From positions 2,939,501 through 3,003,500 of the forward strand of contig NZ_CP020370.1 of the NCBI RefSeq assembly GCF_002813775.1: a stretch of DNA of 64,000 nucleotides, in the 5' to 3' direction. The notes beneath the pieces are model-generated. The model was given only the letters and a program-made list of their open reading frames with translations, was not told the DNA's origin and did no database searches. Position 1 is the first letter of the stretch; each line of letters starts with the position of its first letter. This document shows, one piece after another, positions 20,965-38,339 of the stretch. Made by a program: the position numbers and the translations under genes. Origin of the DNA: Candidatus Thiodictyon syntrophicum (GTDB lineage Bacteria; Pseudomonadota; Gammaproteobacteria; Chromatiales; Chromatiaceae).

Positions 20965-21136
20965 GAGAGGGGTATGAAGTACGAACGCACAGGTCAGCGC
21001 CAGGCCGCGTGCTCGCCGCGCCGCCTCGCCTACCGGCGGGCGGCCCGGCGGCACGCGGGCCACCGCCCCCCTTGTGGGGGATGGGTGGGGGATGAGCGGG
21101 TAGGGTGTTCATGAAGGCAAGGACGGGGAAGCTGGC
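20965..21136. repeat. Diverged copy of the target-gene 3' flank cassette
   Basis: Contains GCCGCGTGCTCGCC, CGCCTCGCCTACCGGCGGGC and a terminal GGGGAAGCTGGC, the same order as the cassettes behind the two DGR targets (31166..31359 and 33997..34192), but much changed. Confidence 0.6.
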
Positions 21137-21924
21137 CTCACGAGACGAAACCCCAGGTAGTTGAAGCGGTCGCGCGGGTCGTTCCAGCCGCGGCACGCAC
21201 CCCGGCACCCCTTCTCGGGCGCGACGTGCCACCAGCTCCCGCCGCGGTACACCCGGCCCCAGCCTCCCTCCGGCCCCCGGGGGTCACGCACCGGTGACTT
21301 GCCGTAGTAGTCGCTACCGTACCAGTCCGCGCACCATTCCCAGACGTTGCCGCTCTGGTTGTAGGTCCCGTAGCCGCAGACCCCGCCCGGATAGCCGGAC
21401 ACCGGACAGGTCGTCTCGTTGCCCTTGTTCTCGTCGTGCCGGCACCGGCGCGCGTCCCACGCGTTGCCCCACGGATAGATCAGCCCGGCAGGTCCCCGCG
21501 CTGCCTTCTCCCACTGCGCCTCGCTCGGCAACGCGCCGCCCGCCCAGTTCGCATAGGCCACCGCGTCGTCCCAGGAGACGCACACCACCGGGTGCTCGGC
21601 CTTCTCCGGCGGGAAACTCTGCCCCGACCAGATTGCTTGGCCAAGATAGTCCTCGTCCGGCACCCGATGGCCGGTCGCCTCGACGAACCGCAGGTACTGC
21701 GCATTGGTCACCGCATAGACCCCGATCCAGTAGGCCGTCAGATGCACCCGATGCTTAAGGTAATTAAGGTAATCCGTGTCCCGCCCGTCGCCCATCTCAA
21801 ACTCACCCGCCGGCACATAGACCATGACCGAACCGTCCCGGACGTTGACCGCCAGCGGCGGCGGGCAGCCGTCGTCCAGCCATTCGCGGGTGCCGTAGCG
21901 CGTTGTTTGGATGTCTGTCGCCAT
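21109..21924 (-). CDS. FGE-sulfatase/C-type-lectin-fold protein, non-matching DGR-target paralogue
   Basis: 271 residues, one SUMF1 domain: VYVPAGEFEMGDGRDTDY near 34-51, YWIGVYAVTNAQYLRFVEATGH, PVVCVSWDDAVAYANWAG, LPSEAQWEKAARGPAGLIYPWG, GNVWEWCADWYGSDYYGKS and the C-terminal RGGSWW...RGACR...LGFRLVRPAS. The family includes formylglycine-generating enzymes, but the catalytic double-Cys arrangement after GGSW is not preserved as such. The C-terminus aligns with the DGR variable repeats yet has one extra codon and changes at non-adenine positions, so the local template cannot have written it as it stands. Confidence 0.85.
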   Translation of the reverse strand: MATDIQTTRYGTREWLDDGCPPPLAVNVRDGSVMVYVPAGEFEMGDGRDTDYLNYLKHRVHLTAYWIGVYAVTNAQYLRFVEATGHRVPDEDYLGQAIWSGQSFPPEKAEHPVVCVSWDDAVAYANWAGGALPSEAQWEKAARGPAGLIYPWGNAWDARRCRHDENKGNETTCPVSGYPGGVCGYGTYNQSGNVWEWCADWYGSDYYGKSPVRDPRGPEGGWGRVYRGGSWWHVAPEKGCRGACRGWNDPRDRFNYLGFRLVRPASPSLPS

Positions 21925-21956
21925 GTCAGATCCTCAGTTCAGGTGGGATGTCCTCG

Positions 21957-22094: not shown

Positions 22095-22099
22095 CTGCA

Positions 22100-22495: not shown

Positions 22496-22573
22496 GGGTT
22501 GGGCCTCCGGCGGCGATGTTCGTAGGTTGTTGGTTGGGGTTGGGGTTTTTCCCGCGGGCTCGGCGCCCACTTT

Positions 22574-22745: not shown

Positions 22746-22753
22746 GCAGAGTG

Positions 22754-25087: not shown

Positions 25088-25308
25088 GGGTGTTCACCCC
25101 CAGGTTTCTTCGCGGGCCGGCGGGAGGACTCGGTGAGCTTGCGCCGATCCTCCAGCCAGGCGTCGATGTCGGCCTTACGGAAGCGCCAGGCCGAGCCGAT
25201 CTTGATGCCGGGGATGGTTCCCTTCTGGGCGTAGCCGTAGAGGGTCTTTTCGGCGATCTTGAGATAGACGGAGAGGTCTTGGAGGGTGAGGATTTCTTCT
25301 TCGGTCAT
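25084..25308 (-). CDS. Excisionase-type helix-turn-helix protein
   Basis: 74 residues: LTLQDLSVYLKIAEKTLYGY (winged helix-turn-helix), GTIPGIKIGSAWRFRKADIDAWL, the MerR-like excisionase family signature, then a short basic tail. Such proteins act as small DNA-binding regulators or recombination directionality factors. Its stop overlaps the start of the kinase-AAA gene by 4 bp, so it is coupled to it and may regulate the cluster. Confidence 0.85.
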   Translation of the reverse strand: MTEEEILTLQDLSVYLKIAEKTLYGYAQKGTIPGIKIGSAWRFRKADIDAWLEDRRKLTESSRRPAKKPGGEHP

Positions 25309-25372
25309 TGGTTGCTAGCTCTGGAAGCCACTCTCTCCCGATCCCTGTGCTTAGGGATGGCGGAGTCGGTGT

Positions 25373-26194
25373 TCATGAAGAACAGGAGAGCGAAGCGCTC
25401 TTCGCGATACGAAAACCAAGCGAGAAAACGCGACCATCGCTTTGGCACTGCCCGAAACGAGTCGCGCCCCGGAAATCTAATTCATCTAAGTGCTCAAAAC
25501 TCCCGCCACGGATCACACGTACGGAGCCTGTCTCCGGCCCTGTTGGGTCGCGCTCTGGGGAGTTACCGTAATAGCCGTCTTCCCGCCAATCCGCGCACCA
25601 CTCCCAGATGTTGCCACTCTGGTTGTAAGTCCCGTAACTGGATACCCCGCCAGGATGGTCGTATGCTTGACAGGTGGTCTCGCCACCTTTGTTTTGGAGG
25701 TGTCGGCATTTGTTTGCGTCCCAGTCCCGGCCCCAGGGATAAATCAAGCCCTCACGCCCCCGTGCCGCCTTTTCCCACTGCGCTTCCGTGGGCAACTCGC
25801 AACCAGCCCACTTTGCATAGGCCTGCGCGTCATCCCAGGAAATGCCGACTACCGGGTGATCGGCCTTCGCTGCCGGGAAGCTGCGACCGACCCAGATCGG
25901 ATCTCCCCTATCTGTTCGATCCGGCGCCCGATGCCCGGTCGCTTCCACGAATCTGAGATACTGCACATTGGTCACAGGATAAACCCCGATCCAGAAGTCC
26001 GAAAGATAAACGCGATGTTTGGGACAGCCACTTCCGACCCCCCCGCCGGAATCCTGATCGTCTCCCATCTCAAACTCCCCTTCGGGGACATAGACCAAAA
26101 TCGAGCCATCCCTCTGATTGACCGCGAGCGGGTGCTCAATAACATATTGGCCGGGCGCGTGCTCCCGGATGATCTTTAATGGCTTGATAAGCAT
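25373..26194 (-). CDS. FGE-sulfatase/C-type-lectin-fold protein, diverged paralogue
   Basis: 273 residues with the complete SUMF1 frame: ILVYVPEGEFEMGDDQDSGG, FWIGVYPVTNVQYLRFVEATGH, PVVGISWDDAQAYAKWAG, LPTEAQWEKAARGREGLIYPWG, GNIWEWCADWREDGYYGNS and RGGSF...FRGATRF...LGFRIAKS. Base composition is lower in GC than in the other three copies. The C-terminus aligns in position with the DGR variable region but has changes at many non-adenine template positions, so it is either an old target or a fixed sensor. It sits between the HTH gene and an AAA+ gene. Confidence 0.85.
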   Translation of the reverse strand: MLIKPLKIIREHAPGQYVIEHPLAVNQRDGSILVYVPEGEFEMGDDQDSGGGVGSGCPKHRVYLSDFWIGVYPVTNVQYLRFVEATGHRAPDRTDRGDPIWVGRSFPAAKADHPVVGISWDDAQAYAKWAGCELPTEAQWEKAARGREGLIYPWGRDWDANKCRHLQNKGGETTCQAYDHPGGVSSYGTYNQSGNIWEWCADWREDGYYGNSPERDPTGPETGSVRVIRGGSFEHLDELDFRGATRFGQCQSDGRVFSLGFRIAKSASLSCSS

Positions 26195-26273
26195 GATTGC
26201 GCTGCTGGCCTCTCCCCATTAGCACCAGCTATCGATTATCTACTCTCAGTCCCTATACGATTCGGGGAGCAGG

Positions 26274-27845
26274 CTAGAGATCCAACAACCGCTCCCCCCG
26301 CACCTTCTCCACCTTCACCTCATCCGCCGCCCCGACCTTGGAGGCATTGCGCGCCTCCCCGCGCAGGACCAACTGGCGCAGCCGCTCGATGCGCTCGCGG
26401 TGCGACTTGGCCAGCGGCACCATGTCGCCGGCGGCGCGCAGCAGGTCCTCGGTCTCGATCTCGCGCTGGCCGTCCATGAAGGGGGCGAACATGCCGTCCT
26501 TGACCACGGCCTCCAGCTCGGCGCCGACGAAGCCCTCGGTGGCGCGGGCGATGGCCGGCAGGTCGAAACGGCTGCGCACCATCGGCAGGCCCTTGCGGTT
26601 CAAGTGCACCTCCAGGATCTGCTCGCGCTCCCGCCCCGTGGGCAGGTCGAGGAAGAACAGCTCGTCAAAGCGCCCCTTGCGCAGGAACTCGGGCGGCAGG
26701 CGCTCCACGTCGTTGGCGGTGGCGAAGACGAAAACCGGGGTCTGCTTCTCCTGCATCCAGGTGAGGAAGGTGCCCAGCACCCGGCTGGAGGTGCCGCTGT
26801 CACCGGCGGAGCCGGCGAAGGCCTTCTCGATCTCGTCGACCCAGAGCACGCAGGGGGCGATGACCTCGGCGATCTGCATCGCCTCGCGGATGTTCTTCTC
26901 CGAGGACCCCAGGATGCCGCCGAATACCGCACCCATGTCCAGGCGCAGCAGCGGCAGCTTCCACATCCCGGCGGCAACCTTGGCGCACAGGCTCTTACCG
27001 GTGCCGGGGATGCCGATCAGGGCCACACCGCGCGGCAGGTCCAGGCCGTAGTCGCGCGCCGCCTCGCTGAAGGCGAGCCGCCGCTTGGCCAGCCAGTCCT
27101 TGAGCGATTCCAGGCCGCCGATGCGGTCCTCCTGTTCAACGAAGGGATAGAGTTCCAGGGCGCCGCTCTCCCGGATGATGGCGCGCTTCTCCTCGACGAT
27201 CAGGTCGATGCAGCGCTCGTCGAGCCGCCCGCCGCGGCCACTGACCACCGCCTTCTGGAAGACCCGCCGCGCCTGGGTGCTGGTGAGGCCGAGCGCCGCC
27301 TCCACCAGCTTGGCACGCAGCCCCGGTGTGACCTGGCGCAGGGCGCCGACGTCGCCGACGGTGCGCTCCAGCAGGGCGTCCATCTCCGCCGCGTCGGGCT
27401 TAGCCAGTTCCAGGACGGGCAGGTCGTGTTTCAGCTCCGCCGGCAGGCAATGCTCCGGGGTGGTGATGAGGATGCTCTTGCGCGGGCTGCGCGCCGGCAG
27501 GCTGGCGGCCAGGTTGCGCAGGCCGCGCAGGGTCCCGCGCTTGGCCTCCCACACCTGATGGAAGTCCTTCAGCACGAAGGTCGCCCCGCCGGGGTAGTCG
27601 CGCAGCATCCGCAGGATGGTGTCCGGGGTCGCCTCGCGCTTGTCGTCGAAGGGCACCTTGGCGGGCTTGAGGCAGGTGAACTGGTCGGCGATATCCCAGG
27701 TGTAGAGCCCCTCGTCCGCCGGCCAGCCGGGACCGCGGCACAGGGCCTCGATCTCGGCGAGCACGCGCGCCTCCTCGGTGGTGACCACGTTGACGATGGC
27801 GATGCGGGCGTCGAAGTGGAGTTTCAGGTCTTCTGCGAAAGTCAT
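26274..27845 (-). CDS. Ycf46-like AAA+ ATPase (paralogue 3)
   Basis: 523 residues. N-domain MTFAEDLKLHFDARIAIVNV with FVLKDFHQVW; AAA+ module with IGGLESLKDWL, Walker A GIPGTGKS near residue 282, CVLWVDEIEKAF Walker B, and FVFATANDVERLPPEFLRKGRFDELFFLDLP. The ATG overlaps the TGA of the radical-SAM gene (ATGA), so the two are made together. C-terminal tail is basic and ends in RGERLLDL, similar to the other paralogues. Confidence 0.88.
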   Translation of the reverse strand: MTFAEDLKLHFDARIAIVNVVTTEEARVLAEIEALCRGPGWPADEGLYTWDIADQFTCLKPAKVPFDDKREATPDTILRMLRDYPGGATFVLKDFHQVWEAKRGTLRGLRNLAASLPARSPRKSILITTPEHCLPAELKHDLPVLELAKPDAAEMDALLERTVGDVGALRQVTPGLRAKLVEAALGLTSTQARRVFQKAVVSGRGGRLDERCIDLIVEEKRAIIRESGALELYPFVEQEDRIGGLESLKDWLAKRRLAFSEAARDYGLDLPRGVALIGIPGTGKSLCAKVAAGMWKLPLLRLDMGAVFGGILGSSEKNIREAMQIAEVIAPCVLWVDEIEKAFAGSAGDSGTSSRVLGTFLTWMQEKQTPVFVFATANDVERLPPEFLRKGRFDELFFLDLPTGREREQILEVHLNRKGLPMVRSRFDLPAIARATEGFVGAELEAVVKDGMFAPFMDGQREIETEDLLRAAGDMVPLAKSHRERIERLRQLVLRGEARNASKVGAADEVKVEKVRGERLLDL

Positions 27846-28519
27846 CTGGTTGTCCTCATGAAAGCACTTTGCTGCCGGCTTCTCCCCTCTCCCCCGGCCC
27901 CTCCCCCTCGGGGGGAGGGGAGGAAGATGGCCGCGGGTCTCCCCCTCCCCCCGAGGGGGAGGGGGTCGGGGGGAGAGGGGGAGAGGGGAAATCCGGTCAC
28001 GGTCATAGCCCCATCGGCCCCGATCCGAAACTCCGTGCGCCGCGGCCCCAACTCAGCGTGCCGATAGCGCCCGGTCAGGAAGATCAGTTCCTGATTGGCG
28101 CTCGCCAGCAGCGGGTGGCGGATCGGGGACTCCTGCCGGTAGGGTCCGGCCACCAGCAGGTCGGCGGCGGCGAGCAACCGGCGGGTGTCGGCGTCCGTGT
28201 CCGTGCGCAGGGCCGCGGCGGTGTGGCCGGTAAAGATCAGCACGCCCTTGCCCGCCGCCCGGACCCGCTCGGCCAGGTCAGCCAAGGGCGCGGCCTGGGC
28301 GAAGGGCTCGCCGCCGGAGAGACTCAGGCCCTCGGTGTCCGGCGCGGCCAAGACCCAGTCGGCAACCGCGACGACCGGCACCACCCGGCCGCCGTCGCAG
28401 GGCAGAAACGCCGGGTTGAAGCAACCGGGGCAGCGTTGCGGGCAGCCCTGCACCCACAGCACCGAGCGCAGGCCGGGGCCGTTGGCGCGGGAGCGGGGGA
28501 GGTAGGCGGCGACCCGCAC
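27842..28519 (-). CDS. Radical-SAM activase-like 4Fe-4S protein with repeat-encoded tail
   Basis: About 225 residues from a GTG at 28519. VQGCPQRCPGCFNP gives the CxxxCxxC radical-SAM cluster near residues 26-33, then LSLSGGEPFAQAAPL, the SAM-binding GGEP motif, and LLVAGPYRQ; this is the small NrdG/PflA-like activating-enzyme type. About 50 C-terminal residues (after TVTGF) are encoded by the G-rich repeat at 27883..27988 read in frame, and the reading frame still ends precisely in an ATGA overlap with the next AAA+ gene. Start is an inference: the GGGGGAGAGG of another repeat unit stands just upstream and would serve as Shine-Dalgarno. Target unknown. Confidence 0.75.
   Translation of the reverse strand: MRVAAYLPRSRANGPGLRSVLWVQGCPQRCPGCFNPAFLPCDGGRVVPVVAVADWVLAAPDTEGLSLSGGEPFAQAAPLADLAERVRAAGKGVLIFTGHTAAALRTDTDADTRRLLAAADLLVAGPYRQESPIRHPLLASANQELIFLTGRYRHAELGPRRTEFRIGADGAMTVTGFPLSPSPPDPLPLGGRGRPAAIFLPSPRGGGAGGEGRSRQQSAFMRTTR
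27883..27988. repeat. G-rich cluster repeats inside the radical-SAM gene
   Basis: Two palindromic units, read in frame as the protein C-terminus (Pro/Gly/Arg-rich). Confidence 0.85.
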
Positions 28520-28626
28520 CCTCTCCCCCGGCCCCTCCCCCAAGGGGGGAGGGGGGAAAGAGGCGCGGAGCTCGCTGCGGGCGCCTCCCCCTCCCCCCGA
28601 GGGGGAGGGGGCCGGGGGGAGAGGGT
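28520..28626. repeat. G-rich cluster repeats, two units
   Basis: Fills the gap between the Hsp70-like gene stop and the radical-SAM start; supplies the purine-rich sequence before that start. Confidence 0.88.
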
Positions 28627-30356
28627 TAGAGCGCGACAAACGGCACCTCCTTGATCGGCAACTCCAGCCGTTCCCCGCTCGACAACTGCACATAGGAGCG
28701 GTTGCCTGGCTCCAGGTCCTTGAGCGACAGGGTGAGCCGTTTGTTGGCGTCCACCCCGAAGCCGGCCACCAGGCGCCGGGCGCCGACGGTGCCGGGCGGG
28801 TCCAGGTGGATGAACTCGCGGTCCCCGGGGTTGAGCTCGCGCAGGGCGATGTCCTCGCGGCGCTGGGTGCCGACCGCCTTGAGGGCGCCGCCGTCCACCT
28901 CATAGAGCGTCTCGGGGCGCAGCATCGCGGAACGTTCCACCACCACCAGGCCGAGGCGGGTGGCGCCCTCGCAGGCGGCGTTGACGAACAGGGCCTTGGT
29001 CGCCTTCTCGGTCGGGTAGCGGGTGCCCTTGGGCACCACCGGGACCAGCACATAGTCCTTGCGCTCGCGGTCCCAACTCGACAGGCAGTAGTCATGCACC
29101 AGGGCCAGGTTGATGTCCTCCCCGGCATAGCGGCAGGCGCCGCGGGCGATGGCCTCGAAGGGGTCCTCGCAATGGACCGGGCAGTCCGGGAACAGGTTGC
29201 GCAGCACCCCGGCCACGCCGAGCAACAGGCTGGAGCCGCCGGCCATGAACACCGCCCGGACCTCGGACTTCTTGATGCCGTAGCGCTCCTGGGCGCCCTC
29301 CAGCGCGCGCTCCAGGGTGCGGGCGATCAGCCGGTAGAGGCTGAGCCCCCGCAACTCCGGGCGGTCGGTCTCCAGGGTCCGGCGCAGCCCGTCGGCGGTG
29401 AAGTCGTGGCCGATCAGGCGCGCGGTGAGATCATTGAACTGGGTGACCTCCACTCGCGCCTCGTCGCCGGACAGGCGCACCTTGGCGTCCTCGATGGCGT
29501 GCAGCAGGGCCGTGCCCACGTCGGCCACGTCCTGGTCGCTCAGGTCTTGGGCCTGTTGCAGTTCCTTGAGCAGCCACTGGTCCACCAGCGAGCCGCCAAT
29601 CTCCTCCCCGGCGCGCGCCAGGACCTCGCAGGGGCGGGTCTCCCCGGCCCCCAGGTCGCGGGTCTTTATGAGCGACACGTCCAGGGTACCGCCGCCGAAG
29701 TCGAAGACCACATAGACCTGCCCCTCGCGCACATGGGTGTCGTAGCCCAGGATGCAGGCGGTGGCCTCATCCAGCATCCGCACCGTACCGCGAAAGCTCT
29801 GGAGCACCGCCCCCTGGAGCCAGTCCACATAGGTGTCGTAGGACTCCACCGGCAGGGTCACCACCAGCTCCTCGCCGCCCCCGCCCGCCGCCAGCAGGAC
29901 CTGGCCGATCAGGTCCTCCGCCGCCTGGCGCGGGGTGACGAGCGAGCCGTTGATGCGCCGCGCCCGATTGTTGTTGCGCAGGATGTCGAGCTTGGCCCAG
30001 CGGAAGGTCCCGCGGTGGCTCACGAGCCCCGCGTTCTCCACCTGGGCGCCGGTGCGCAGGGTGTTGCCCTCGCCGTAATGGATGAGCGAAGGCACTACGG
30101 CCGATTCCCTCTCCCCCCGACCCCCTCCCCCAAAGGGGGAGGGGGAGGAAGCTTCCCCCCTCCCCCTGAGGGGGAGGGGCCGGGGGAGAGGGCGCTTCTC
30201 CCCTCCCCCCATGGGGGAGGGGTCAGGGGAGAGGCCCGGCCGGTACCGATAGGTCTTCGTCAACCCATCCAGCCGCACCGTCTCCACACTGCGCGTCGCC
30301 GCGTTCCAGCGTGCCAGCACCGTGTTGCAGGTGCCGAAGTCCAGGGCCATGGTCAT
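28626..30356 (-). CDS. Hsp70/DnaK-like ATPase with in-frame repeat insertion
   Basis: 576 residues. N-terminal phosphate-loop ALDFGTCNTVLA, VVPSLIHYG, LVVTLPVESY, FDFGGGTLDVSLIK and the adenosine motif VFMAGGSSLLLGV define the actin-like Hsp70 ATPase; the C-terminal 170 residues are shorter than in DnaK and lack a clear helical lid. Residues about 41-85 are a Pro/Gly/Arg-rich block encoded by three G-rich cluster repeats (30107..30234) inserted between KTYRYRP and AVVPSL. GGAGG lies 9 bases before the ATG. The GrpE-like gene precedes it by 18 bp, so they form a dedicated chaperone/exchange-factor pair. Confidence 0.85.
   Translation of the reverse strand: MTMALDFGTCNTVLARWNAATRSVETVRLDGLTKTYRYRPGLSPDPSPMGGGEKRPLPRPLPLRGRGEASSPSPFGGGGRGERESAVVPSLIHYGEGNTLRTGAQVENAGLVSHRGTFRWAKLDILRNNNRARRINGSLVTPRQAAEDLIGQVLLAAGGGGEELVVTLPVESYDTYVDWLQGAVLQSFRGTVRMLDEATACILGYDTHVREGQVYVVFDFGGGTLDVSLIKTRDLGAGETRPCEVLARAGEEIGGSLVDQWLLKELQQAQDLSDQDVADVGTALLHAIEDAKVRLSGDEARVEVTQFNDLTARLIGHDFTADGLRRTLETDRPELRGLSLYRLIARTLERALEGAQERYGIKKSEVRAVFMAGGSSLLLGVAGVLRNLFPDCPVHCEDPFEAIARGACRYAGEDINLALVHDYCLSSWDRERKDYVLVPVVPKGTRYPTEKATKALFVNAACEGATRLGLVVVERSAMLRPETLYEVDGGALKAVGTQRREDIALRELNPGDREFIHLDPPGTVGARRLVAGFGVDANKRLTLSLKDLEPGNRSYVQLSSGERLELPIKEVPFVAL
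30107..30234. repeat. G-rich cluster repeats inside the Hsp70-like gene
   Basis: Three units in frame in the coding sequence; total length keeps the frame open. Confidence 0.85.
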
Positions 30357-30374
30357 GCTGTCGTTCCTCCGGGT

Positions 30375-30932
30375 TCAGGCCGCGTCCGCCGGTTCCGCCG
30401 GGGCCCCGGCGCGGCTGACCAGCGCCTTGAGCAGAATGGTCTCGCCCAGGCGATAGCCGACGAAGCGCACCGTCACCGCCGCGTCGTCCGCCACGTCCGC
30501 GCCGCTCAGGCGCTGGTGCAGGCGGGTGTCGAAAGGCACCTGCTCTCCGACGGTGCCGATGCGGGTGAGCCCGGCCTCGGCCAGGACCGACTCGACCTTG
30601 CCGAAGAGCTTGAGGATGTCCGGCACCCGCACCTCCCGGCCGTCCGCGGCCAGGGCCTGGATGGTGGCGAGTTGGGACAGCAGGGGGGCCAGGTGGCGCG
30701 CCAGGTCGCCAAGGCCGGCCGCCGCCGCGCCGGCGCGCTCGCGCTCGGCCTGACCGCCCAGGCGCTCGTACTCGGCGCGCACGCGATTCAGTTCCGCGTC
30801 GCGCTCGCGCAGATCCAGTTCCAGGGCGGCGATGCGGGCGCGCGGGTCGCCGGGGTCGCGCACGGGTGCGCCGCGCAGGGCCTGCCAGGCGGCACTGAGG
30901 CGGGAGGGCCAGTGGTTCGTTGGTGCTGTCAT
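30375..30932 (-). CDS. GrpE-like nucleotide exchange factor
   Basis: 185 residues. A long helical segment (about 30-75, ARIAALELDLRERDAELNRV) suggests the GrpE coiled coil, and the C-terminal part VGEQVPFDTRLHQRL...VRFVGYRLGETILLKALV matches the GrpE beta domain that opens the Hsp70 nucleotide cleft. It lies immediately upstream of the Hsp70-like gene, which fits the role. It is diverged from housekeeping GrpE, so probably specific to this cluster. Confidence 0.78.
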   Translation of the reverse strand: MTAPTNHWPSRLSAAWQALRGAPVRDPGDPRARIAALELDLRERDAELNRVRAEYERLGGQAERERAGAAAAGLGDLARHLAPLLSQLATIQALAADGREVRVPDILKLFGKVESVLAEAGLTRIGTVGEQVPFDTRLHQRLSGADVADDAAVTVRFVGYRLGETILLKALVSRAGAPAEPADAA

Positions 30933-30963
30933 GGTGTTGTCCTCAGTGGTGAACGATCATTCG

Positions 30964-31125
30964 CCCTCTCCCCCCGGCCCCCTCCCCCTCGGGGGAGGGG
31001 GGGAAGAGGATCCGCCTGCGCGGCCACTCTCCCACCGTCTTCTCCCTCCCCCATGGGGGAGCGGCTGGGGGAGAGGCTCTTCATCCTTCGCCCCTCCCCC
31101 CGCGGGGGAGGGGTCGGGGGAGAGG
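30964..31125. repeat. G-rich cluster repeats, three units
   Basis: Between the DGR target (31332) and the GrpE-like gene start. Confidence 0.9.
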
Positions 31126-31165
31126 TCCGTCCTCCCCTCTCGCTAATACACTTTATGTGTGTATC

Positions 31166-31359
31166 AAAAAAAATCGCCGCGGGCCCCACCTCCTGCGCAG
31201 CGCCGCGTGCTCGCCCGGTCGCCTCGCCTACCGGCGGGCGACCGGGCGGCACGCTACCCACCCCGCGAGCACTCGCCTTTCTTTCCCACACGGATGGGGG
31301 GACGGTGTGTGGGCAAGAGGGGGTGGGGGGGTCATGAAGGCAGGGACGGGGAAGCTGGC
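31166..31359 (-). repeat. Target-gene 3' flank cassette with hairpin and T-run
   Basis: About 194 bp nearly identical to 33997..34192. Read on the minus strand it runs from the end of the variable repeat through the stop codon, a CCCACAC/GTGTGGG hairpin, a perfect 12-bp stem (31212..31223 with 31237..31248) and ends in GGCGATTTTTTTT. It could be a terminator, a DGR-associated hairpin aiding retrohoming, or both. Confidence 0.7.
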
Positions 31360-32129
31360 CTCACGAGCCGAAACCCCCGGGCGGCGTTGCGGTAACCCGG
31401 CCCCCACCTGTAGCGGAACGCGCCCCGAAAGTACACGGGGGCGCCGGACCCCCAACTCCCGCCTCGGCGCACCCGGAGCGAGCCTCCCTCCGGCCCCCGG
31501 GGGTCACGCGCCACCGACTTGCCGTAATAGTCCCTGTCGTACCAGTCCGCACACCATTCCCAGACGTTGCCGCTCTGGTTGCAGGTGCCGTAGCCCGAGA
31601 CCCCGCCCGGGTAGCCGGACACTGGACAGGTCGTCTCGTTGCCCTTGTTATTGTCGTTGCGGCACCGGCCCGCATCCCAGTCGTTGCCCCAGGGATAAAT
31701 CAGCCCCTTGGAACCACGCGCCGCCTTCTCCCACTGCGCCTCCGTCGGCAACGCGCAACCGGCCCACTTCGCATAGGCGGTCGCGTCGTCCCAGGAGACG
31801 CACACCACCGGGTGATCGGCCTTCTCCGGCGGGAAACTCCGCCCCGACCAGATCGCCCGCCCACCGTCGGCCTGGTCCGGCACCCGATGCCCGGTCGCCT
31901 CAACGAATCGCAGATATTGCGCATTGGTCACCGCATAGACCCCAATCCAGTAGGCAGAAAGCGTCACCCGGTGCTTGGGGCAATCCGTGTCCTTCCCATC
32001 GCCCATCGCGAACTCACCCTCAGGGACATAAACCATGACCGAGCCGTCCTGGGCATTGACCGCCAGCGGATGCTCGATGCGATACCGCCCCTTGCCCAGT
32101 TCGCGCAGGATTCCGCCGCCGTCAGACAT
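31332..32129 (-). CDS. DGR target protein A (FGE-sulfatase/C-type-lectin fold)
   Basis: 265 residues from ATG 32129, chosen for AAGGAG 9 bases upstream. SUMF1 landmarks: VMVYVPEGEFAMGDGKDTD, YWIGVYAVTNAQYLRFVEATGH, PVVCVSWDDATAYAKWAG, GLIYPWG, GNVWEWCADWYDRDYYGKS. Residues about 215-257 are the variable repeat: RGGSW, then a run of hypervariable residues, FRGA, more variable residues and the constant RGFRLVRPAS. The formylglycine-enzyme cysteines after GGSW are absent, so it is a binding protein, not an enzyme. No signal peptide is visible, so it acts in the cytoplasm, in line with the ATPases around it. It follows the reverse transcriptase gene by about 180 bp. Confidence 0.92.
   Translation of the reverse strand: MSDGGGILRELGKGRYRIEHPLAVNAQDGSVMVYVPEGEFAMGDGKDTDCPKHRVTLSAYWIGVYAVTNAQYLRFVEATGHRVPDQADGGRAIWSGRSFPPEKADHPVVCVSWDDATAYAKWAGCALPTEAQWEKAARGSKGLIYPWGNDWDAGRCRNDNNKGNETTCPVSGYPGGVSGYGTCNQSGNVWEWCADWYDRDYYGKSVARDPRGPEGGSLRVRRGGSWGSGAPVYFRGAFRYRWGPGYRNAARGFRLVRPASPSLPS
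31360..31486 (-). repeat. DGR variable repeat VR-A
   Basis: 127 bp aligned without gaps to the template at 35324..35450. By my manual alignment there are 21 differences, and all 21 are at positions where the template sense strand has A. The 3' end in sense direction (CGGCTCGTGAG) is identical and should act as the initiation of mutagenic homology. Confidence 0.95.
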
Positions 32130-32181
32130 CGCTGATGCTCCTTGATTAAAGTTGGCCATGGGGCGCCCGCTCGCGCGCTCG

Positions 32182-32303
32182 CCCTCTCCCCCGGCCCCTC
32201 CCCCTCGGGGGGAGGGGAGAAAGAGGGTTCAGGTGCGCCGGGGGGGGGCTTCCCCCCCTCCCCCCGAGGGGGAGGGGGCCGGGGGGAGAGGGGGGAGAGG
32301 GCG
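32182..32303. repeat. G-rich cluster repeats, two units
   Basis: Between the reverse transcriptase stop (32308) and target A. Confidence 0.9.
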
Positions 32304-32307
32304 GCCG

Positions 32308-33294
32308 TCACACATCAATGGTGCTCCGCAACGGTTCGCCATAACCCAGGAACTTCCGCGGCCCAGCCAGGGCGCGCACGCAGTCCTGGAGCTTGTCGGC
32401 CCCGATCTCACCCGCCAGGTATTGCGCCTCGCGTCGCACAAGCAGGCGCCGCTGCCGACGCAGACGCGGCCCCTGCTGGCGCAGCAGCCCCGGATAGACC
32501 CGCCAGCCGAGAAAGGGCATCCCCTCGCCGACCGGGGCGATGAGCGTGCGCTCCTCCTTCAATTCCAGGGCCAGTCGCGCGGCCAGCAGGGCGCGCAGAT
32601 CGGCCGCCAGGGCGAAGAGGCGCTCCTTGTCGTGGGCCCACAGGGCCAGGTCGTCCATGTAACGCACGTAGCCCGGGATGCGCTCGACCTCCCTGACCCA
32701 GTGGTCCACCTCGTCCAGATAGAGGTTGGCGAACCACTGGCTGGTGAGGTTGCCGATGGGCAGGCCCTTGCCGGGGATGGGGTGCTCCACGATCACGGCC
32801 AACAGGCGACGCAGCGCCGGCTCGCGGCACAAGGCGTAGAGCTTGGCCAGCAGGATGACGTGGTCGATAGAGTCGTAGTAACGGCGGATGTCGGTCTTGA
32901 GATACCAGCCGTGACGGCGGGCGAAGCCTTGGGCGCGCAACAGGGCGCGGTGGCTGCCCTTACCTTCCCGGCAGGCATAGTTGTCGGCGATCAGGCGCCG
33001 CTCGATGAGTGGCGCCAGGACGGCGCAGACGGCATGGTGCACCACCCGGTCGCGAAAGTGGGCGCAACTGATGCGCCGGGGTTTGGGGTCGCAGATGGAA
33101 AACTGCTCGTAGGGGCGCGGGCGGTAGGTGCCGGCGGCGAGTTCTTCGCGCAGGCGCGGGAGCGCGGTCGCGCGCTCGGCCAGCAGGCGCTGCACCGGGG
33201 CGCGCTCGCGCTTGCCGCGGGCGGCGCGCTCCAGCGCGGCGTCGAGGTTCGCGGGATCAAGGATGCGCTCGAACAGGCCGCCATAGGACTTCAT
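32308..33294 (-). CDS. DGR reverse transcriptase
   Basis: 328 residues. Palm motifs: YLKTDIRRYYDSID (motif A, first catalytic Asp at 134), LPIGNLTSQ at 178-186 followed by WFANLYLDEVDHWV, and YMDD at 212-215. The (I/V/L)GxxxSQ signature in place of the QGxxxSP of group II intron and retroviral enzymes is diagnostic for diversity-generating retroelements. No maturase, X or endonuclease domain is attached. The ATG overlaps the stop of the HRDC gene (33291..33294), so both are co-translated. It copies the template RNA with errors at adenines and the product replaces the variable repeats. Confidence 0.95.
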   Translation of the reverse strand: MKSYGGLFERILDPANLDAALERAARGKRERAPVQRLLAERATALPRLREELAAGTYRPRPYEQFSICDPKPRRISCAHFRDRVVHHAVCAVLAPLIERRLIADNYACREGKGSHRALLRAQGFARRHGWYLKTDIRRYYDSIDHVILLAKLYALCREPALRRLLAVIVEHPIPGKGLPIGNLTSQWFANLYLDEVDHWVREVERIPGYVRYMDDLALWAHDKERLFALAADLRALLAARLALELKEERTLIAPVGEGMPFLGWRVYPGLLRQQGPRLRRQRRLLVRREAQYLAGEIGADKLQDCVRALAGPRKFLGYGEPLRSTIDV

Positions 33295-33806
33295 CGTCTG
33301 GGCTCCGCGGGCCCGGCCGGCGGGGCTGCGGCGGGCGCCGGGGCGGGCGCGGCCGGCGCCTCCTTCGGCAGCAGGGCGAGCAGCGCCGCGCCGTATTTGG
33401 TGCAGGTCGCCTCACCGATACCGTCGATCTCGCGCAGGGCCGCCAGGGTGCGCGGCAGGCGCTTGCAGATCTCGGCCAACTGGGTGTTGCGCAGGATGGT
33501 GTAGGAGGGGATGCCGGCCTTCTTGGCGGTCTCGTTGCGCCATTCCCGCAGGTCGCGATAGAGCGGGCGCAGGGCCTCGGGCAGGGTCAGGCCGGGGTCG
33601 TCTTCCGGGCGCGACGGTGGCCGCTGGCCGTTGCCGGGACCGTCGGCCAGCATCACGACCAGGGCCAGGTGGGGAATGCCGCCGAGCACGAAGAAATGCT
33701 CGCGCACCTCCAGCACCTCGTGCCCGGCGGTGGCCGCGCGCAGGGCGTCCTCCGGGAAACCCTGGAGGCCCTCGCTATAGCGGAGTGTGACGACACGGAT
33801 GTTCAT
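33291..33806 (-). CDS. HRDC-domain DGR accessory protein
   Basis: 171 residues from ATG 33806. The N-terminal part (MNIRVVTLRYSEGLQGFPED, VLEVREHFFVLGGIPHLALVV) is a conserved lead found in such accessories; residues about 65-145 are an HRDC nucleic-acid-binding domain (LRPLYRDLREWRNETAKKAG, SYTILRNTQLAEICKRLP, LREIDGIGEATCTKYG). HRDC proteins are a known substitute for Avd in some DGRs. The tail is Ala/Pro-rich. It overlaps the reverse transcriptase gene by 4 bp. An upstream extension of the frame is repeat-derived and was not used. Confidence 0.88.
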   Translation of the reverse strand: MNIRVVTLRYSEGLQGFPEDALRAATAGHEVLEVREHFFVLGGIPHLALVVMLADGPGNGQRPPSRPEDDPGLTLPEALRPLYRDLREWRNETAKKAGIPSYTILRNTQLAEICKRLPRTLAALREIDGIGEATCTKYGAALLALLPKEAPAAPAPAPAAAPPAGPAEPRR

Positions 33807-33836
33807 AACTCTTTTACCTGTGCAATCGAATCCGGC

Positions 33837-33959
33837 CCCTCTCCCCCCGACCCCCTCCCCCGAAGGGGGAGGGGGAGGGCACACCCTTGCCCCCGACACT
33901 TCCTCCTTGGGCGTCCATCTTCTCCCCTCCCCCCGAGGGGGAGGGGCCGGGGGAGAGGG
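33837..33959. repeat. G-rich cluster repeats, two units
   Basis: Between target B cassette and the HRDC gene. Confidence 0.9.
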
Positions 33960-33996
33960 CGCCTTCATCTCTTGAACAAACACATATTGTGTATAG

Positions 33997-34192
33997 AAAA
34001 AAAATCGCCGCGGGCCCCACCTCCCGCGCAGCGCCGCGTGCTCGCCCGGTCGCCTCGCCTACCGGCGGGCAACCGGGCGGCACGCTACCCACCCCGCGAG
34101 CACTCGCCTTTCTCTCCCGCACGAATGGGGGGACGGTGTGTGGGGAAGAGGGGGGGTGGGATGTTCATGAAGGCGGGGGTGGGGAAGCTGGC
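33997..34192 (-). repeat. Target-gene 3' flank cassette, second copy
   Basis: About 196 bp nearly identical to 31166..31359, including the octa-T end and the GC-rich stem (one mismatch in the right arm). Confidence 0.75.
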
Positions 34193-34980
34193 CTCACGAG
34201 CCGAAACCCCTGGCGGCCGTAGCGGTAACCCGGCTCCCTCCAGTTGCGGTTCGCGCCCCGAAAGTACACGGGGTCGTCGTACCACCAACTCCCGCCTCGG
34301 TCCACCCGGCGCGAGCCTCCCTCCGGCCCCCGGGGGTCACGCGCCGGCGACTTGCCGTAGTAACCGCCGCCGTACCAGTCCGCGCACCATTCCCAGACGT
34401 TCCCGCCCTGGTTATAGGTCCCATAGCCCGACACCCCGCCCGGGTAGCCGGACACCGGACAGGTCGTCTCGTTGCCCTTGTTCTTGTCGTTGCGGCACCG
34501 GCTCGCATCCCAGTCGTTGCCCCAGGGATAGATCAGCCCGCCAGGCCCCCGCGCTGCCTTCTCCCACTGCGCCTCCGTCGGCAACGCACCGCCCGCCCAC
34601 TTGGCATAGGCAGTCGCGTCGTCCCAGGAGACGCACACCACCGGGTGATCGGCCTTCTCCGGCGGGAAGCTTCGGCCTTTCCACACCGGGTTACCATAAT
34701 CGGCCTTATCCGGCGCCCGATGCTTGGTCGCCTCCACGAACCGGAGATACTGCGCATTGGTCACGCAGTACACCCCGATCCAGTAGGCCGACAGATGCAC
34801 TTTATGCTTGGGGCAATCGTTGCCCTGCCCGTCACCCATCTCGAACTCGCCCGCCGGGACATAGATCATCGGTGAGCCGTCCTTGCGATTGACGGCGAGG
34901 CGCTGCGAGAGTCCTTCAAATTGGATCGCCCGCGCCAGGTCAATGGCTTTGGGGATGCTGTCGGTCTTTGTTGCCGTCAT
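34165..34980 (-). CDS. DGR target protein B (FGE-sulfatase/C-type-lectin fold)
   Basis: 271 residues. SUMF1 landmarks: MIYVPAGEFEMGDGQGND, YWIGVYCVTNAQYLRFVEAT, PVVCVSWDDATAYAKWAGG, GLIYPWG, GNVWEWCADWYGGGYYGKS. The variable repeat covers residues about 221-263, with DRGGSWWYDD, FRGANRNW and GYRYGRQGFRLVRPA. Tyr and Trp are frequent at the variable sites, as in known DGR-diversified lectin folds. No signal peptide. AGGTGATCC stands before the ATG. It lies between the template repeat and the HRDC gene and is about as similar to target A as recent duplicates are. Confidence 0.92.
   Translation of the reverse strand: MTATKTDSIPKAIDLARAIQFEGLSQRLAVNRKDGSPMIYVPAGEFEMGDGQGNDCPKHKVHLSAYWIGVYCVTNAQYLRFVEATKHRAPDKADYGNPVWKGRSFPPEKADHPVVCVSWDDATAYAKWAGGALPTEAQWEKAARGPGGLIYPWGNDWDASRCRNDKNKGNETTCPVSGYPGGVSGYGTYNQGGNVWEWCADWYGGGYYGKSPARDPRGPEGGSRRVDRGGSWWYDDPVYFRGANRNWREPGYRYGRQGFRLVRPASPPPPS
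34193..34319 (-). repeat. DGR variable repeat VR-B
   Basis: 127 bp, ungapped to the template. By manual alignment 13 differences, all 13 at template adenines (T on the plus strand). It has fewer changes than VR-A, suggesting a more recent or lighter round of mutagenic homing. Confidence 0.95.
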
Positions 34981-35006
34981 GGATCACCTGTCGATTGAGC
35001 CTCGTG

Positions 35007-35298
35007 CCCTCTCCCCCGGCCCCTCCCCCAACGGGGGAGGGGAGTAGATAGAGTGGCCGGGCGGCGGCGGTGGCCCCGCGGGGGGGCTACTGGCCGCCGC
35101 TGGCCTGTCGGTTTCGGTCCCGCCATGGCGGGACACGGGTCTGAGTGGATGGGACAGCTTCCAGTCCTCGCGCCCTCTCCCCTGCCCCTCCCCCTCGGGG
35201 GGAGGGGTAAGAGGGATCGGGGGTGAAAAGGGCACTTCCGCACGCATCCCCTCCCTCCCCCCCTCCCCCCATGGGGGAGGGGGCCGGGGGGAGAGGGT
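35007..35298. repeat. G-rich cluster repeats, three units with spacer
   Basis: Units at about 35007-35047, 35171-35213 and 35251-35298, between the template repeat and target B. Confidence 0.88.
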
Positions 35299-35323
35299 CC
35301 GAGTCCTTGCCTTGAAACCTGTG

Positions 35324-35450
35324 CTCACGAGCCGAAACCCCTGGTTGTCGTTGCGGTTACCCGGCTCCCTCCTGTTGCGGTTCGCGCCCCGAAAGTTCTC
35401 GGGGTCGTCGTTCCTCCAACTCCCGCCTCGGTTCACCCGGTTCGAGCCTC
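35324..35450 (-). repeat. DGR template repeat (TR)
   Basis: 127 bp. Read on the minus strand in the frame of the targets it holds nine AAC codons at exactly the positions that vary in VR-A and VR-B, the hallmark of a DGR template. It is not inside a credible gene: an open frame runs through it, but both sides are G-rich repeats. The bases flanking it (GGTTTCAAGG after the common CTCGTGAG on the minus strand) differ from the variable-repeat flank, as expected for the donor that must not be overwritten. Confidence 0.95.
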
Positions 35451-35459
35451 TGCTCCACT

Positions 35460-35663
35460 CACCCTCTCCCCTGCCCCTCCCCCTCGGGGGGAGGGGTAAG
35501 AAAACACTGCCCTCCCCCTCGGGGGGAGGGCTAAGAAAAGACTGCCCTCCCCCGCGGGGAAGGGGGCCGGGGGGAGAGGGAGTTGAGCGCCAGCCTTCCG
35601 CACCCACCGAGCCTTTTCCCCCCCTCCCCCCGAGGGGGAGGGGGCCGGGGGGAGAGGGCGGAG
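35460..35663. repeat. G-rich cluster repeats, four units
   Basis: Between the template repeat and the stop of the 480-residue gene; last units of the array when read from the left. Confidence 0.9.
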
Positions 35664-35669
35664 ACGGCG

Positions 35670-37112
35670 CTACTCGAACTCCACCTCCCCCGCATCCTCC
35701 AACTCCACCGCCCCCCGGTCGGTCGCCTCGCCGGTCTCGTCGACCGTGATCCCCCCGGCGACGAAGACGCCCTGGAAGGTGCACAGGATCGACAGCAGGC
35801 CGCGGGTGCGGGCGGCGGCGGGGCCGCTCGCCTGCTGGAACCGGGCGCTGTGGCGCGCATAGTCCTCCGGGGTGCCGCCAATCGGCGCGGCGAGCAGGCC
35901 GGCGTCACCGGCGCAGGCGTTGACCCAGAGGACGTGATCCTCCGGGGCGCCGGCCAGGGCGGCGGGGTCGAGCAGGCGGGCGATGAGGCGCTCGGGCCAG
36001 TGCTCGCTCGTGGCGGCGGCGGTTAGGCGCTGGGCTTCGACCAGATTGCGCTCCTGACCCAGATAGAGCCCGCGGGCCTTGCGGAAGGGGTCTTCCGCGG
36101 TCAGGTCGGCACGTAGGTCGGCATCGCTGGGCTCTTGGTCGCGCCAGAAGTCGAAGAGATCGACCATTCCGTCGGGCAACTCGGGGCCGGGCTCGACCTT
36201 GAATGCGCCCAGGCTGCGATACTCACTCACCGCTTTGTCCACGGCGGCGCGGTGGGCGGGATGTGCGGGCCGGCCTGGGACCGCGGCCCAGCGCTCGCAC
36301 AGGCCCAGCACGTCCAGCAGGCGCAGGTGGCGGGTCTGCTCGAAGAGTCCGTCCTCGTCCCCGACCAGCTTGAGGTTCTCGACGCTTTGCGCCTTGTCCA
36401 CCGCACCGCTGGAGAGGGCACGCCGGTAGGCTTCCTTGATCCCCCGGTCCGGGCTGGCGGCAACGGTCTGTGCCAGACGTGAACGGAAGGGCTCGGGGGC
36501 CATGGCGAAGGCCTGCACCAACAAGACGCCGTCCTGGTCCTTCAGTGCCGCATAGCGCTCCAGCCGGCCGGTGACCAAGGCGTGCAGGGCCTCCAGGGCG
36601 GGACTGGCGGATTGGCGCCTCTGCTCGGTGATCAGGGTCTCCAGTTCCGGCGATTGGGACCGTATCCAGGCGGCATAGATGGCGTCGTTGCCGACCTCGT
36701 CCGCGACGGGCAGGGCGCGGGCGACGCGGGTAACGGCTTGCAGGGTCTCCTTGTCGGCGCCCTCGTTGGCGAGGGCGAGCAGGTCACGCGCCGTCTTCGC
36801 CGGCACCGCCCGCCCCGGCGGCCAGCCGATCTGGGTCAGCACGCCGGCCAGGGCGGGACCCGGTGTGCGTGAGAAATAGTCCCACAGGGCCTCGACCTTT
36901 TCGGCGTCCGCGGGCGCGGCGAGCCGGCCCAGGCCGTTCAGGATCTCCTTGGGGTGCGGGTGGCCCTGGCCGAGGGCCGCGGCCAGTGCCAGCACCCCCT
37001 CCGGACCGGGCGACCCCAGCAGCACCTTGAGCGCCGCGCGGCGACGCCTGCCGCCGAGCAGGAATCCCGTGTCGAATAACCGTTTGCGTGCCTCGTCCAG
37101 CGTCATTTTCAT
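35670..37112 (-). CDS. Helical-repeat protein of unknown function
   Basis: 480 residues from ATG 37112. Nearly all-helical, with many Leu/Ala heptads (for example ALKVLLGSPGPEGVLALAAAL and FRSRLAQTVAASPDRGIKEA), suggesting a HEAT-like solenoid; no catalytic motif or signal peptide is visible. I do not recognise a named family. It is the first gene of the minus-strand DGR cluster, with an AT-richer promoter-like region upstream (about 37140-37200), so it is a likely scaffold for the system (inference). The next ATG (37106) is possible. Confidence 0.7.
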   Translation of the reverse strand: MKMTLDEARKRLFDTGFLLGGRRRRAALKVLLGSPGPEGVLALAAALGQGHPHPKEILNGLGRLAAPADAEKVEALWDYFSRTPGPALAGVLTQIGWPPGRAVPAKTARDLLALANEGADKETLQAVTRVARALPVADEVGNDAIYAAWIRSQSPELETLITEQRRQSASPALEALHALVTGRLERYAALKDQDGVLLVQAFAMAPEPFRSRLAQTVAASPDRGIKEAYRRALSSGAVDKAQSVENLKLVGDEDGLFEQTRHLRLLDVLGLCERWAAVPGRPAHPAHRAAVDKAVSEYRSLGAFKVEPGPELPDGMVDLFDFWRDQEPSDADLRADLTAEDPFRKARGLYLGQERNLVEAQRLTAAATSEHWPERLIARLLDPAALAGAPEDHVLWVNACAGDAGLLAAPIGGTPEDYARHSARFQQASGPAAARTRGLLSILCTFQGVFVAGGITVDETGEATDRGAVELEDAGEVEFE

Positions 37113-37350
37113 GCCCCCGAGTGTCAGTCCCGCCACGTCTATGCAGAGTAGTATAGAGCAACAGATAGCAATAGAGAGTTTTTTTGCGTCTTTCGCAGGG
37201 AGTAAATCGGCGCGGCGATCACCCCGGGGCGAGGCGTCGTCGGCCGCGAGCGGGCGTCGGTAGCACGATCCCGGCGTTCCCCTGCGTGTCGTGTTGATGT
37301 GGGAACCGGCCGCGGCGACCGGCGAGCGGTGGAACGGTTTGGAGGTTGAG

Positions 37351-37725
37351 ATGGCAAGAAAGGCGATCGTGCGGGTAGCGCACTGGACACGGACCAAGGC
37401 CGAGTTGGCGGACCTGGCGCGGCGGGCACAGACGGGCGAGGCCTTGCCGGAGACGGACTATCAACTGGGCTTTGCCAGCGCGGCGCAACTCTTCGACGAG
37501 TTGACACCGGCGCGGCTGGCGATGCTCGACCGACTGAAGGGACTGGGGCCTGTCTCCATCGTCGCCTTGGCCGGGCACCTGGCGCGCGACTCCCGCCAAG
37601 TGCAGATCGACATCGCCAAGCTCTTGGATTTAGCACTGGTGGAGCAAGACGCGACGGGACTCGTCTGCGTGCCCTGGGATGAGATTCAGATCCAAGTCAC
37701 CCTGGCCAGGGCCAAGGCGGCTTAG
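37351..37725 (+). CDS. HVO_A0114-like winged-HTH regulator
   Basis: 124 residues from ATG 37351, with GGAGG 5 bases upstream. The segment LAMLDRLKGLGPVSIVALAGHLARDSRQVQIDIAKLLDLALVE is a MarR/ArsR-like winged helix, followed by VPWDEIQIQV. Relatives are often antitoxins of RelE-like toxins, but no toxin gene adjoins. It diverges from the 18-kb minus-strand cluster across a 238-bp intergenic region, so it is a plausible cluster regulator. Confidence 0.7.
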   Translation: MARKAIVRVAHWTRTKAELADLARRAQTGEALPETDYQLGFASAAQLFDELTPARLAMLDRLKGLGPVSIVALAGHLARDSRQVQIDIAKLLDLALVEQDATGLVCVPWDEIQIQVTLARAKAA

Positions 37726-37766
37726 CGGGGGAATGCGGGGCCTTGGCGGACAGGGCGGACGCGCTC

Positions 37767-38339
37767 TTACCGGAAGTCCGGGAAGAGCAGATCGACCAGC
37801 GAGTCCAGCGTCCGGGTGGCGTCGCCAAAACCGGTGGCGCGCTCGAACCGCTCCAGCACCGCCAGGGCCTCGTCGAGGCTCGCGGTGTGCAGGGCCTCGA
37901 ACTCCACGCAGTGCACCGCGCGGTCGCCGCTGCGTGCCTGGTAGCGGACGATCTCGCACTGGGGGAACTCCCAGACCTCGATGTCCTTGGTGATGTCGCC
38001 GCGCCAGGTGGCGCCGAGTTGCGCAACGAAGGCATCCACCGCGGCCGACTGGTCACCCGCGTGCTGGCCTAAGTCCAGATTGATCTCGGTGCGCACTTCG
38101 GGGTCGGCCGCAAGGGCCTTGACCGTGAGGTGCTGGAGCACGGCATCGTAGCGGTGGCGAATTACATAGCGGTGCGCGCGGCCGTGCTCGGTCAGGAAAT
38201 AGCGGTCCAGCACGCGCAGGGTAAAGCGGCGCAGCGGGGGCGGATCGAGCGCCTGGACGAGGCCCCGGAAGGCGTCGACATCAAACTGCTCACTCACCAC
38301 GAACTTGTGCTCGATCTCAGTGAAGCGCATCACATCCAT
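37767..38339 (-). CDS. CYTH-like domain protein
   Basis: About 190 residues. It begins MRFTEIEHKFVV, the EIExKF-type signature of the CYTH (triphosphate tunnel) fold, and has alternating charged strands (HRYVIRHRYDAVL, RTEINLDLG, CVEFEAL). Members hydrolyse triphosphates or bind polyphosphate; substrate unknown. It starts 5 bp after the phospholipase-D-like gene and is the last gene of a four-gene operon. Confidence 0.65.
   Translation of the reverse strand: MDVMRFTEIEHKFVVSEQFDVDAFRGLVQALDPPPLRRFTLRVLDRYFLTEHGRAHRYVIRHRYDAVLQHLTVKALAADPEVRTEINLDLGQHAGDQSAAVDAFVAQLGATWRGDITKDIEVWEFPQCEIVRYQARSGDRAVHCVEFEALHTASLDEALAVLERFERATGFGDATRTLDSLVDLLFPDFR

Follow-up and report, generated by a model that had tools for sequence, protein, structure and literature searches.

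Long bulged hairpins downstream of both targets of an HRDC-type diversity-generating retroelement in Candidatus Thiodictyon syntrophicum

In the diversity-generating retroelement (DGR) of phage BPP-1 adenines are mutagenized during transfer of sequence from a template repeat (TR) to a variable repeat (VR), and a hairpin with a GRNA loop on the sense strand stands 3' of the VR (PMC3240598). According to the same article, target hairpins of phage DGRs have stems of 7–10 bp located 4–34 bp from the VR, and either avd or HRDC serves as accessory gene. In the DGR of Treponema denticola (PMC4891356) an HRDC gene overlaps the gene of the reverse transcriptase (RT) and the target is of FGE type (structure 2y3c); the main text of that paper nowhere uses the words hairpin, cruciform or inverted repeat. 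Nanoarchaeal DGRs (PMC4372165) possess target hairpins with GRA trinucleotide loops. Large genomes with several DGRs have also been described, in which FGE or CLec targets, often two, lie beside AAA-type ATPases and were proposed to act as antigen sensors; the main text of this description contains neither HRDC nor hairpin as a word. Here we consider a DGR found in 64,000 nucleotides of Candidatus Thiodictyon syntrophicum DNA (hereafter the window; NZ_CP020370.1, positions 2,939,501 to 3,003,500, that is 2.94–3.00 Mb of contig 1 in a 7.74-Mb genome of three contigs). It resembles BPP-1 in adenine mutagenesis and in the orientation and type of the hairpin loop, but has HRDC instead of Avd, a bulged stem of 22 bp instead of 7–10 bp, and a spacing of 105–107 nt instead of 4–34 bp. 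With T. denticola it shares the overlap of HRDC and RT genes and a target of FGE type. Three-base loops of the nanoarchaeal kind are also present in many of its relatives, whereas nanoarchaeal hairpins differ from those of the window by their position inside the target gene and their accessory protein is Avd-like.

We ascribe a probability of about 0.87 to the reading in which the window carries an HRDC-type DGR whose long hairpins mark its targets, participation of the HRDC protein in the reading of these hairpins being added as a speculation. The cassette as such is an ordinary member of its kind. Its parts, together with related features, are collected in Table 1.

Table 1. Features of the DGR locus, related genes of the window and other DGRs of the same genome. 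Stability of hairpins relative to dinucleotide shuffles is given as z.
Feature	Coordinates	Strand	Remarks
Hairpin D, 3' of gene D	21007..21056	-	Same architecture and loop as A and B, altered stem; z -7.7
Related FGE gene D	21109..21924	-	VR-like end differs from TR at 18 A sites and 14 other sites, 3-nt gap
Related FGE gene C	25373..26194	-	No hairpin (z +0.7), serving as internal contrast
164-nt segment 3' of target A	31166..31329	-	Holds hairpin A; 95% identical to second copy
Hairpin A	31205..31254	-	22-bp stem, GGTA loop, 105 nt past VR-A; z -6.0
Target gene A	31332..32159	-	FGE-sulfatase domain protein, 275 aa; PF03781
Variable repeat A (VR-A)	31360..31486	-	127 nt; 21 differences from TR
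DGR reverse transcriptase	32308..33294	-	328 aa; LPIGNLTSQ and YMDD motifs
HRDC-domain accessory protein	33291..33806	-	171 aa from ATG 33806; reading frame open to 33983; overlaps RT start
Second copy of 164-nt segment, 3' of target B	33997..34160	-	95% identity
Hairpin B	34036..34085	-	22-bp stem, GGTA loop, 107 nt past VR-B; z -6.3
Target gene B	34165..34980	-	FGE-sulfatase (C-type-lectin-like) domain protein, 271 aa; PF03781, E 1.6e-55
Variable repeat B (VR-B)	34193..34319	-	127 nt; 13 differences from TR
Template repeat (TR)	35324..35450	-	127 nt, 31 adenines
Open reading frame P575	35670..37397	-	No family assigned; directly upstream of TR
L062, HRDC-type DGR, same genome	C1:2220000-2238000; TR 9086-9211, VRs 6833-6958 and 10226-10351		Two targets
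L096, Avd-type DGR, same genome	C1:3489000-3506000; TR 9840-9956, VR 7863-7979		12 adenine changes, 0 others

The initial annotation, made from the sequence of the stretch, described three 127-bp segments on the minus strand aligning without gaps, in which 21 differences of VR-A and 13 of VR-B from the template fall on its adenines. Position-by-position comparison of the reverse-complemented repeats gave the same gapless pairing and the same counts (21/21 and 13/13), and the coordinates and strand agree for all features. A mismatch at a non-adenine position of either VR, named there as the result that would overturn the claim, was found at none of the 96 non-adenine positions of TR in VR-A or in VR-B (0/192 together). 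With 31 adenines among 127 positions, random placement gives such a pattern with a chance of ~1.4e-13 for VR-A and ~1.1e-8 for VR-B. In the target frame TR contains nine AAC codons, as had been counted before, and substitutions at its adenines cannot give rise to a stop codon; up to ~10^16 protein variants per target are reachable, as computed from TR. Eleven adenine sites are altered in both VRs, at five of them to the same new base. Beyond the repeats both VRs continue with GCCAGC and TR with CACAGG, at the place where a difference between the initiation of mutagenic homing element (IMH) and IMH* would be expected, and each VR stops 28 nt before the end of its gene. With TR as blastn query, the matches below E 1 were TR itself, both VRs and the L062 template, and no others.

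In the 600 bases immediately upstream of the VR, genes A and B agree at 493 and differ at 107, whereas within the VR all 96 non-adenine positions are the same in both genes and in TR. Since copying from one TR keeps the repeats alike everywhere except at adenines, this difference shows that copying went on after A and B had diverged. Ordinary gene duplication or gene conversion, with differences at adenines by chance, is practically negligible as an explanation of the repeats: A and B are indeed paralogues with a common 3' segment, but 34 of 34 differences at template adenines and a DGR-type RT adjoining the repeats speak against it. The adenine-only pattern is evidence of past copying from TR into the VRs and not of present activity, so that "direct evidence of retrohoming", as it was initially worded, stands for the past only. 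A formerly active and now silent DGR, the targets of which are no longer diversified, seems quite unlikely to us. Only one genome of the species has been seen, so current variation cannot be judged, and the related locus L078 has lost its RT core; however, the frames of RT, HRDC and both targets are open, and the absence of drift at non-adenine VR positions (0/192) contrasts with 107/600 in the flanking coding DNA.

The RTs of DGRs carry the motif xGxxxSQ in place of QGxxxSP. Both LPIGNLTSQ and YMDD reported earlier are indeed present in the RT frame of the window. Its closest solved structure is chain 8ub7, listed as 'Reverse transcriptase' (E 3.2e-47), which we take to be the BPP-1 DGR enzyme; group II intron RT 6ar1 is far behind (E 6e-17). 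The brt gene of BPP-1 matches the RT of the window with 35.8% identity over 81% of the query (tblastn). In a tree of 67 rows a 100/100 branch separates the window RT and 62 other DGR RTs from four further RTs of the same genome, which need not be intron RTs. Grouping with introns, which had been proposed as a ground for rejecting the element, was thus not observed, and for a group II intron RT or maturase the family model NCBIfam TIGR04416 gave 110.7 bits against a cut-off of 300, with structure matches weaker than that of 8ub7. The accessory protein, correctly recognized at the outset, matches HRDC PF00570 with E 1.8e-19; an AlphaFold2 model of this protein alone, with a pLDDT of 48.5, was set aside. 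Within 2.5 kb of the RT no Avd was detected by iterated profile searches, and the DGR may be called complete, as it was, when HRDC counts as the accessory. PADLOC gave generic matches only (kinase, AAA (IetA), RT and HRDC (DpdF)). Among solved relatives of target A is 2y3c, the variable protein of T. denticola (E 2.1e-13).

The inventory of DGR parts and its span, 31332–35450, were right as far as they went, but the bulged hairpin 105–107 nt past each VR was overlooked: hairpin A lies just outside this span, and hairpin B inside it went unmentioned. In both of them two single A bulges interrupt the 3' arm. None of 100 dinucleotide shuffles was as stable as hairpin A, B or D, while for the flank of FGE gene C 79 of 100 were. 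The hairpin recurs, with compensating changes, after the third related gene (D) and in another genus; when A, B, D and the hairpin of L078 are compared, 97.7% of the cells in 22 pairs are paired and four pairs are altered on both sides. The loops, GGTA in A, B and D and GGCA in L078, all fit the sense-strand GRNA consensus. In the own genome the 164-nt segment was found only after A, B and, in part, D (blastn, E 0.001, 40 of 69 candidates scored); a fourth match under the same conditions is the hairpin pairing with its own complement. Rfam at gathering threshold gave no match within 18000–38000. A repetitive extragenic palindrome or a miniature inverted-repeat transposable element (MITE) was also considered as a source of the hairpin in the window and set aside there, given this restriction of the segment to A, B and D among the scored candidates.

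Location 3' of the stop codon is what one would expect from a transcription terminator or an mRNA 3'-end element of the target genes having no part in target recognition. A terminator-like hairpin with a T-run does follow at 34028–34009, and the whole 164-nt segment is common to A and B. This T-run, however, belongs to a hairpin separate from hairpin B, TTTT within 12 nt on the 3' side was found in none of the 32 hairpins of HRDC-only loci from the comparative set described below, FGE gene C has no hairpin, and the loops have a strand orientation and belong to the type that BPP-1 requires. Such a role is, in our opinion, unlikely, and we prefer the long hairpin as a target mark.

Gene D retains a strong hairpin despite 14 non-adenine differences and an indel in its VR-like end, being either a target no longer in use or one whose template has been lost; by inference from its sequence we consider it a former target.

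Relatives of the RT were registered in 23 of 210 genomes of the order, in 13 of 369 genomes of a class sample and in 17 of 398 genomes of a phylum sample, the own genome being counted each time. An adenine-mismatch scan of 79 inputs yielded a first set of 62 loci in which TR and VR could be paired, the window and three plasmid records among them; no pair was found in 4 of 41 and 12 of 38 inputs, and locus L154 with an unclear TR direction was dropped by hand. The 97 VRs of this set contain 1489 adenine and 43 other mismatches, and the low number of the latter is partly a selection effect, because pairs with more than three other mismatches were excluded by rule. The accessory was Avd in 33 loci, HRDC in 18, both in nine and neither in two. 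The hold-out set was taken from the best 80 of 573 relatives in named genomes of many phyla, identified with a query alignment in which HRDC-clade RTs were abundant; in the scan for relatives a single-protein query found none and the alignment query did. Nineteen of the 80 inputs lacked a TR/VR pair, and the other 61 loci (60 with sufficient flank) contain 78 VRs with 1229 adenine and 43 other mismatches. The highest RT identity between the two sets is 71.3%; two hold-out Avd loci with identical RTs (L279 and L280) were both counted. VRs with less than 140 nt of flank were left out (4 of 97 and 1 of 78).

In Avd-only loci 20 of 45 sense flanks and none of 45 antisense flanks have a perfect hairpin no farther than 150 nt from the VR, with a loop of GNA or GRNA and 5 bp or more in the stem; the controls stood at 2/62 (TR flanks), 5/90 (upstream of VRs) and 36/1860 (shuffles). 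For HRDC-only loci the corresponding numbers were 6/32 and 2/32. In the hold-out the orientation of loops was seen again, though weaker (10/41 sense and 2/41 antisense flanks for Avd-only, 5/60 TR flanks). The best bulged hairpin in HRDC-only flanks has a median of 24 bp and was below all 60 shuffles in 27 of 32 VR flanks, which was observed in 9/45 flanks for Avd, 3/13 for loci with both accessories, 2/18 TR flanks of HRDC loci and 0/33 regions upstream of their VRs. The criterion of a long hairpin (dG at most -17, at least 18 bp, below all shuffles) was set after seeing the first set and frozen in writing before the hold-out. By locus it selected 16 of 17 scorable HRDC-only loci, 3 of 9 with both, 0 of 33 Avd-only and 1 of 2 with neither in the first set, and 4 of 12, 3 of 15, 0 of 31 and 0 of 2, respectively, in the hold-out, where TR flanks gave 1/60. 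Per-locus z differed in the first set between HRDC-only and Avd-only loci (p 3.6e-6) and between loci with any HRDC and Avd-only loci (p 0.0005); in the hold-out 7/27 loci with any HRDC against 0/31 Avd-only gave p 0.003 in Fisher's test and p 0.0009 by per-locus z. In each of the five first-set genomes holding both kinds, the dG of all HRDC-only VRs lies below that of any Avd-only VR. Thus, association of HRDC with the hairpin repeats in the hold-out, weaker than at the first-set rate. Neither this link nor the long variant of the hairpin was found in print among the open-access PMC papers searched.

Based on these data and on the known mechanism of DGRs one can assume that reverse transcription of the template RNA would place random bases opposite its adenines and that the cDNA would then replace the VR, bringing the computed range of variants to the binding surface of each target. 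The comparative data suggest that the long bulged hairpin with its GNA/GRNA-type loop, located 3' of each VR, may mark the DNA as a target. The HRDC protein might, speculatively, take part in reading it, and its recognition of a cruciform is likewise a speculation by analogy.

Several observations weigh against this reading. The distance of the hairpins in the window from the VR is beyond the range reported for phage DGRs (PMC3240598). Four doubly changed stem pairs were equalled in 42 of 500 column shuffles, the number of doubly changed cells in 1 of 500, with four sequences compared. A strict scan for loops of exactly 4 nt showed, by eye, no enrichment at VR flanks, and it appears once bulges and three-base loops are allowed. 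The HRDC-only rate dropped from 16/17 to 4/12 in the hold-out, the cut-off having been chosen post hoc, and the few passes among loci with both HRDC and Avd mean that the hairpin is not predicted by HRDC alone. HRDC loci are richer in GC (medians 0.72 vs 0.52 and 0.56 vs 0.43), for which z corrects in part, and the within-genome order of stabilities fails by z in two of five genomes (G159 and G616). Finally, the trees offer two and one to two independent contrasts, too few for significance.

The HRDC rows form almost one clade in the RT tree (28 rows, 95/90), so the association need not be causal. There is about an even chance that the hairpin is a target mark, the length of which was inherited in one RT clade irrespective of HRDC and which merely holds the target strand open for cDNA. 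The near-single clade and the one to two contrasts agree with this, and a study of BPP-1 (PMC12875486) proposes that the stem-loop prolongs the open state. On the other side, the window and L078 belong to a nine-row clade apart from the 17-row HRDC-only clade; the seven other members have HRDC together with Avd, five of them with weak hairpins (z above -2.5), yet these two have long ones. Reappearance of the association across many phyla also speaks against such an inherited length. Loss of Avd as a trigger of the long hairpin, hinted at by the first tree, was unsupported in the hold-out (HRDC-only vs both, p 0.34).

Flanks of HRDC-only loci contain one more element, the heptamer GCGGAGC, present in 17 of 32 sense and 1 of 32 antisense flanks (8% in shuffles); no copy lies within 150 nt of the VRs in the window. 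At several loci three copies are spaced by 31–39 nt, with the middle one at the apex of the hairpin. Of 210 genomes 15 contain such spaced triples, at 25 places in all. The reversed triple pattern is commoner (62 places by our table count, with 35 in a single genome), which shows that triples as such are not rare. The eight most stable of the 25 triples (dG from -21.6 to -44.5) are the eight directly following an FGE-type gene, while none of the other 17 (dG from -8.7 to -20.9, overlapping matches sharing a value) has an FGE-type gene upstream. Only a small difference in dG separates the two groups, and three of the eight FGE-linked triples belong to loci that had served to define the motif. 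The other five are new and belong to genomes G020 (two), G145, G150 and G159. In G145 and G150 two different queries detected no DGR RT, and in each of them an FGE gene is accompanied by a triple-heptamer hairpin (L189, G145:C111, and L191, G150:C242). From their sequence these two sites are candidate orphan targets.

A broader proposal remains tentative, with the odds clearly against it. HRDC DGRs may use another address than Avd DGRs, namely a long, bulged and strand-oriented cruciform that HRDC would read as a four-way junction, replacing the reading of short hairpins of Avd type. One subgroup would add the triple GCGGAGC, at the apex and at each foot, and this could serve to locate distant or orphan targets where a genome has no detectable DGR RT.

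On the minus strand the cassette is arranged in the order P575, TR, target B, HRDC, RT and target A, followed by GrpE-like, Hsp70-like, radical SAM and AAA genes, then by FGE gene C, HTH, kinase-AAA, DUF1257, FGE gene D, antitoxin-like, DUF2997 and AAA. The order P575–TR–target is repeated in loci L078 and L177 of two related genomes. Of the 210 genomes of the order, the present one counted, 6 contain a close relative of P575 (E at most 1e-10) and 3 one of the Hsp70-like protein (E at most 1e-25). The VR of L177 departs from its own template at 23 adenines and 11 other positions, so not all relatives are clean. In L078 a deletion (3200–3838) joins the start of HRDC to the end of RT, and TR differs from VR at 18 adenines and one other position; this may be a dead cassette, a cassette served in trans, or an assembly error on a short contig.

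The region 18499–31000 of the minus strand clusters genes for kinase-AAA, two AAA, radical SAM, Hsp70-like, GrpE-like, DUF1257 and DUF2997 proteins with the two additional FGE genes. It looks like one signalling or conflict system, unnamed by the libraries searched. The FGE-fold targets are perhaps sensor proteins of a conflict system, with variation at the binding surface. Pfam models of vWA, MoxR and STAND had no match in 27 open reading frames of the window, so the MoxR-vWA ternary conflict system (PMC7159879 and PMC10907252), in which a MoxR-like ATPase, a vWA protein and VMAP stand beside the target, was not recognized here by these models; it is in this respect, and in having kinase-AAA, AAA, radical SAM, Hsp70 and GrpE neighbours, that the window differs from the published systems of multi-DGR genomes. 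The radical SAM frame (27842–29128, minus strand) is open far upstream into the Hsp70 gene and its domain matches begin near residue 207–215, so the actual start codon probably lies inside the frame. Around TR (35100–35680) and filling many intergenic gaps there are short GC-rich palindromes of the CCCTCCCCC...GGGGGAGGG kind, MITE-like by eye.

Three DGRs were found in the 7.7-Mb genome: that of the window, L062 and L096. The two VRs of L062 have 13 and 14 adenine changes and no others, and are followed on the 3' side by hairpins of 29 and 27 bp. The initial reading was borne out as to the DGR and could not show these two elements or the kinship of gene D.

The cassette thus adds an ordinary case to those described, a genome with three DGRs diversifying FGE-fold proteins beside predicted signalling genes. 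The part worth pursuing is the long target hairpin of the HRDC kind. The way in which DGRs find their targets is only partly known, and the experiments we found concern one phage; a structural mark tied to the accessory protein makes target recognition by HRDC DGRs testable, and the hairpin offers a search pattern for targets remote from the RT.

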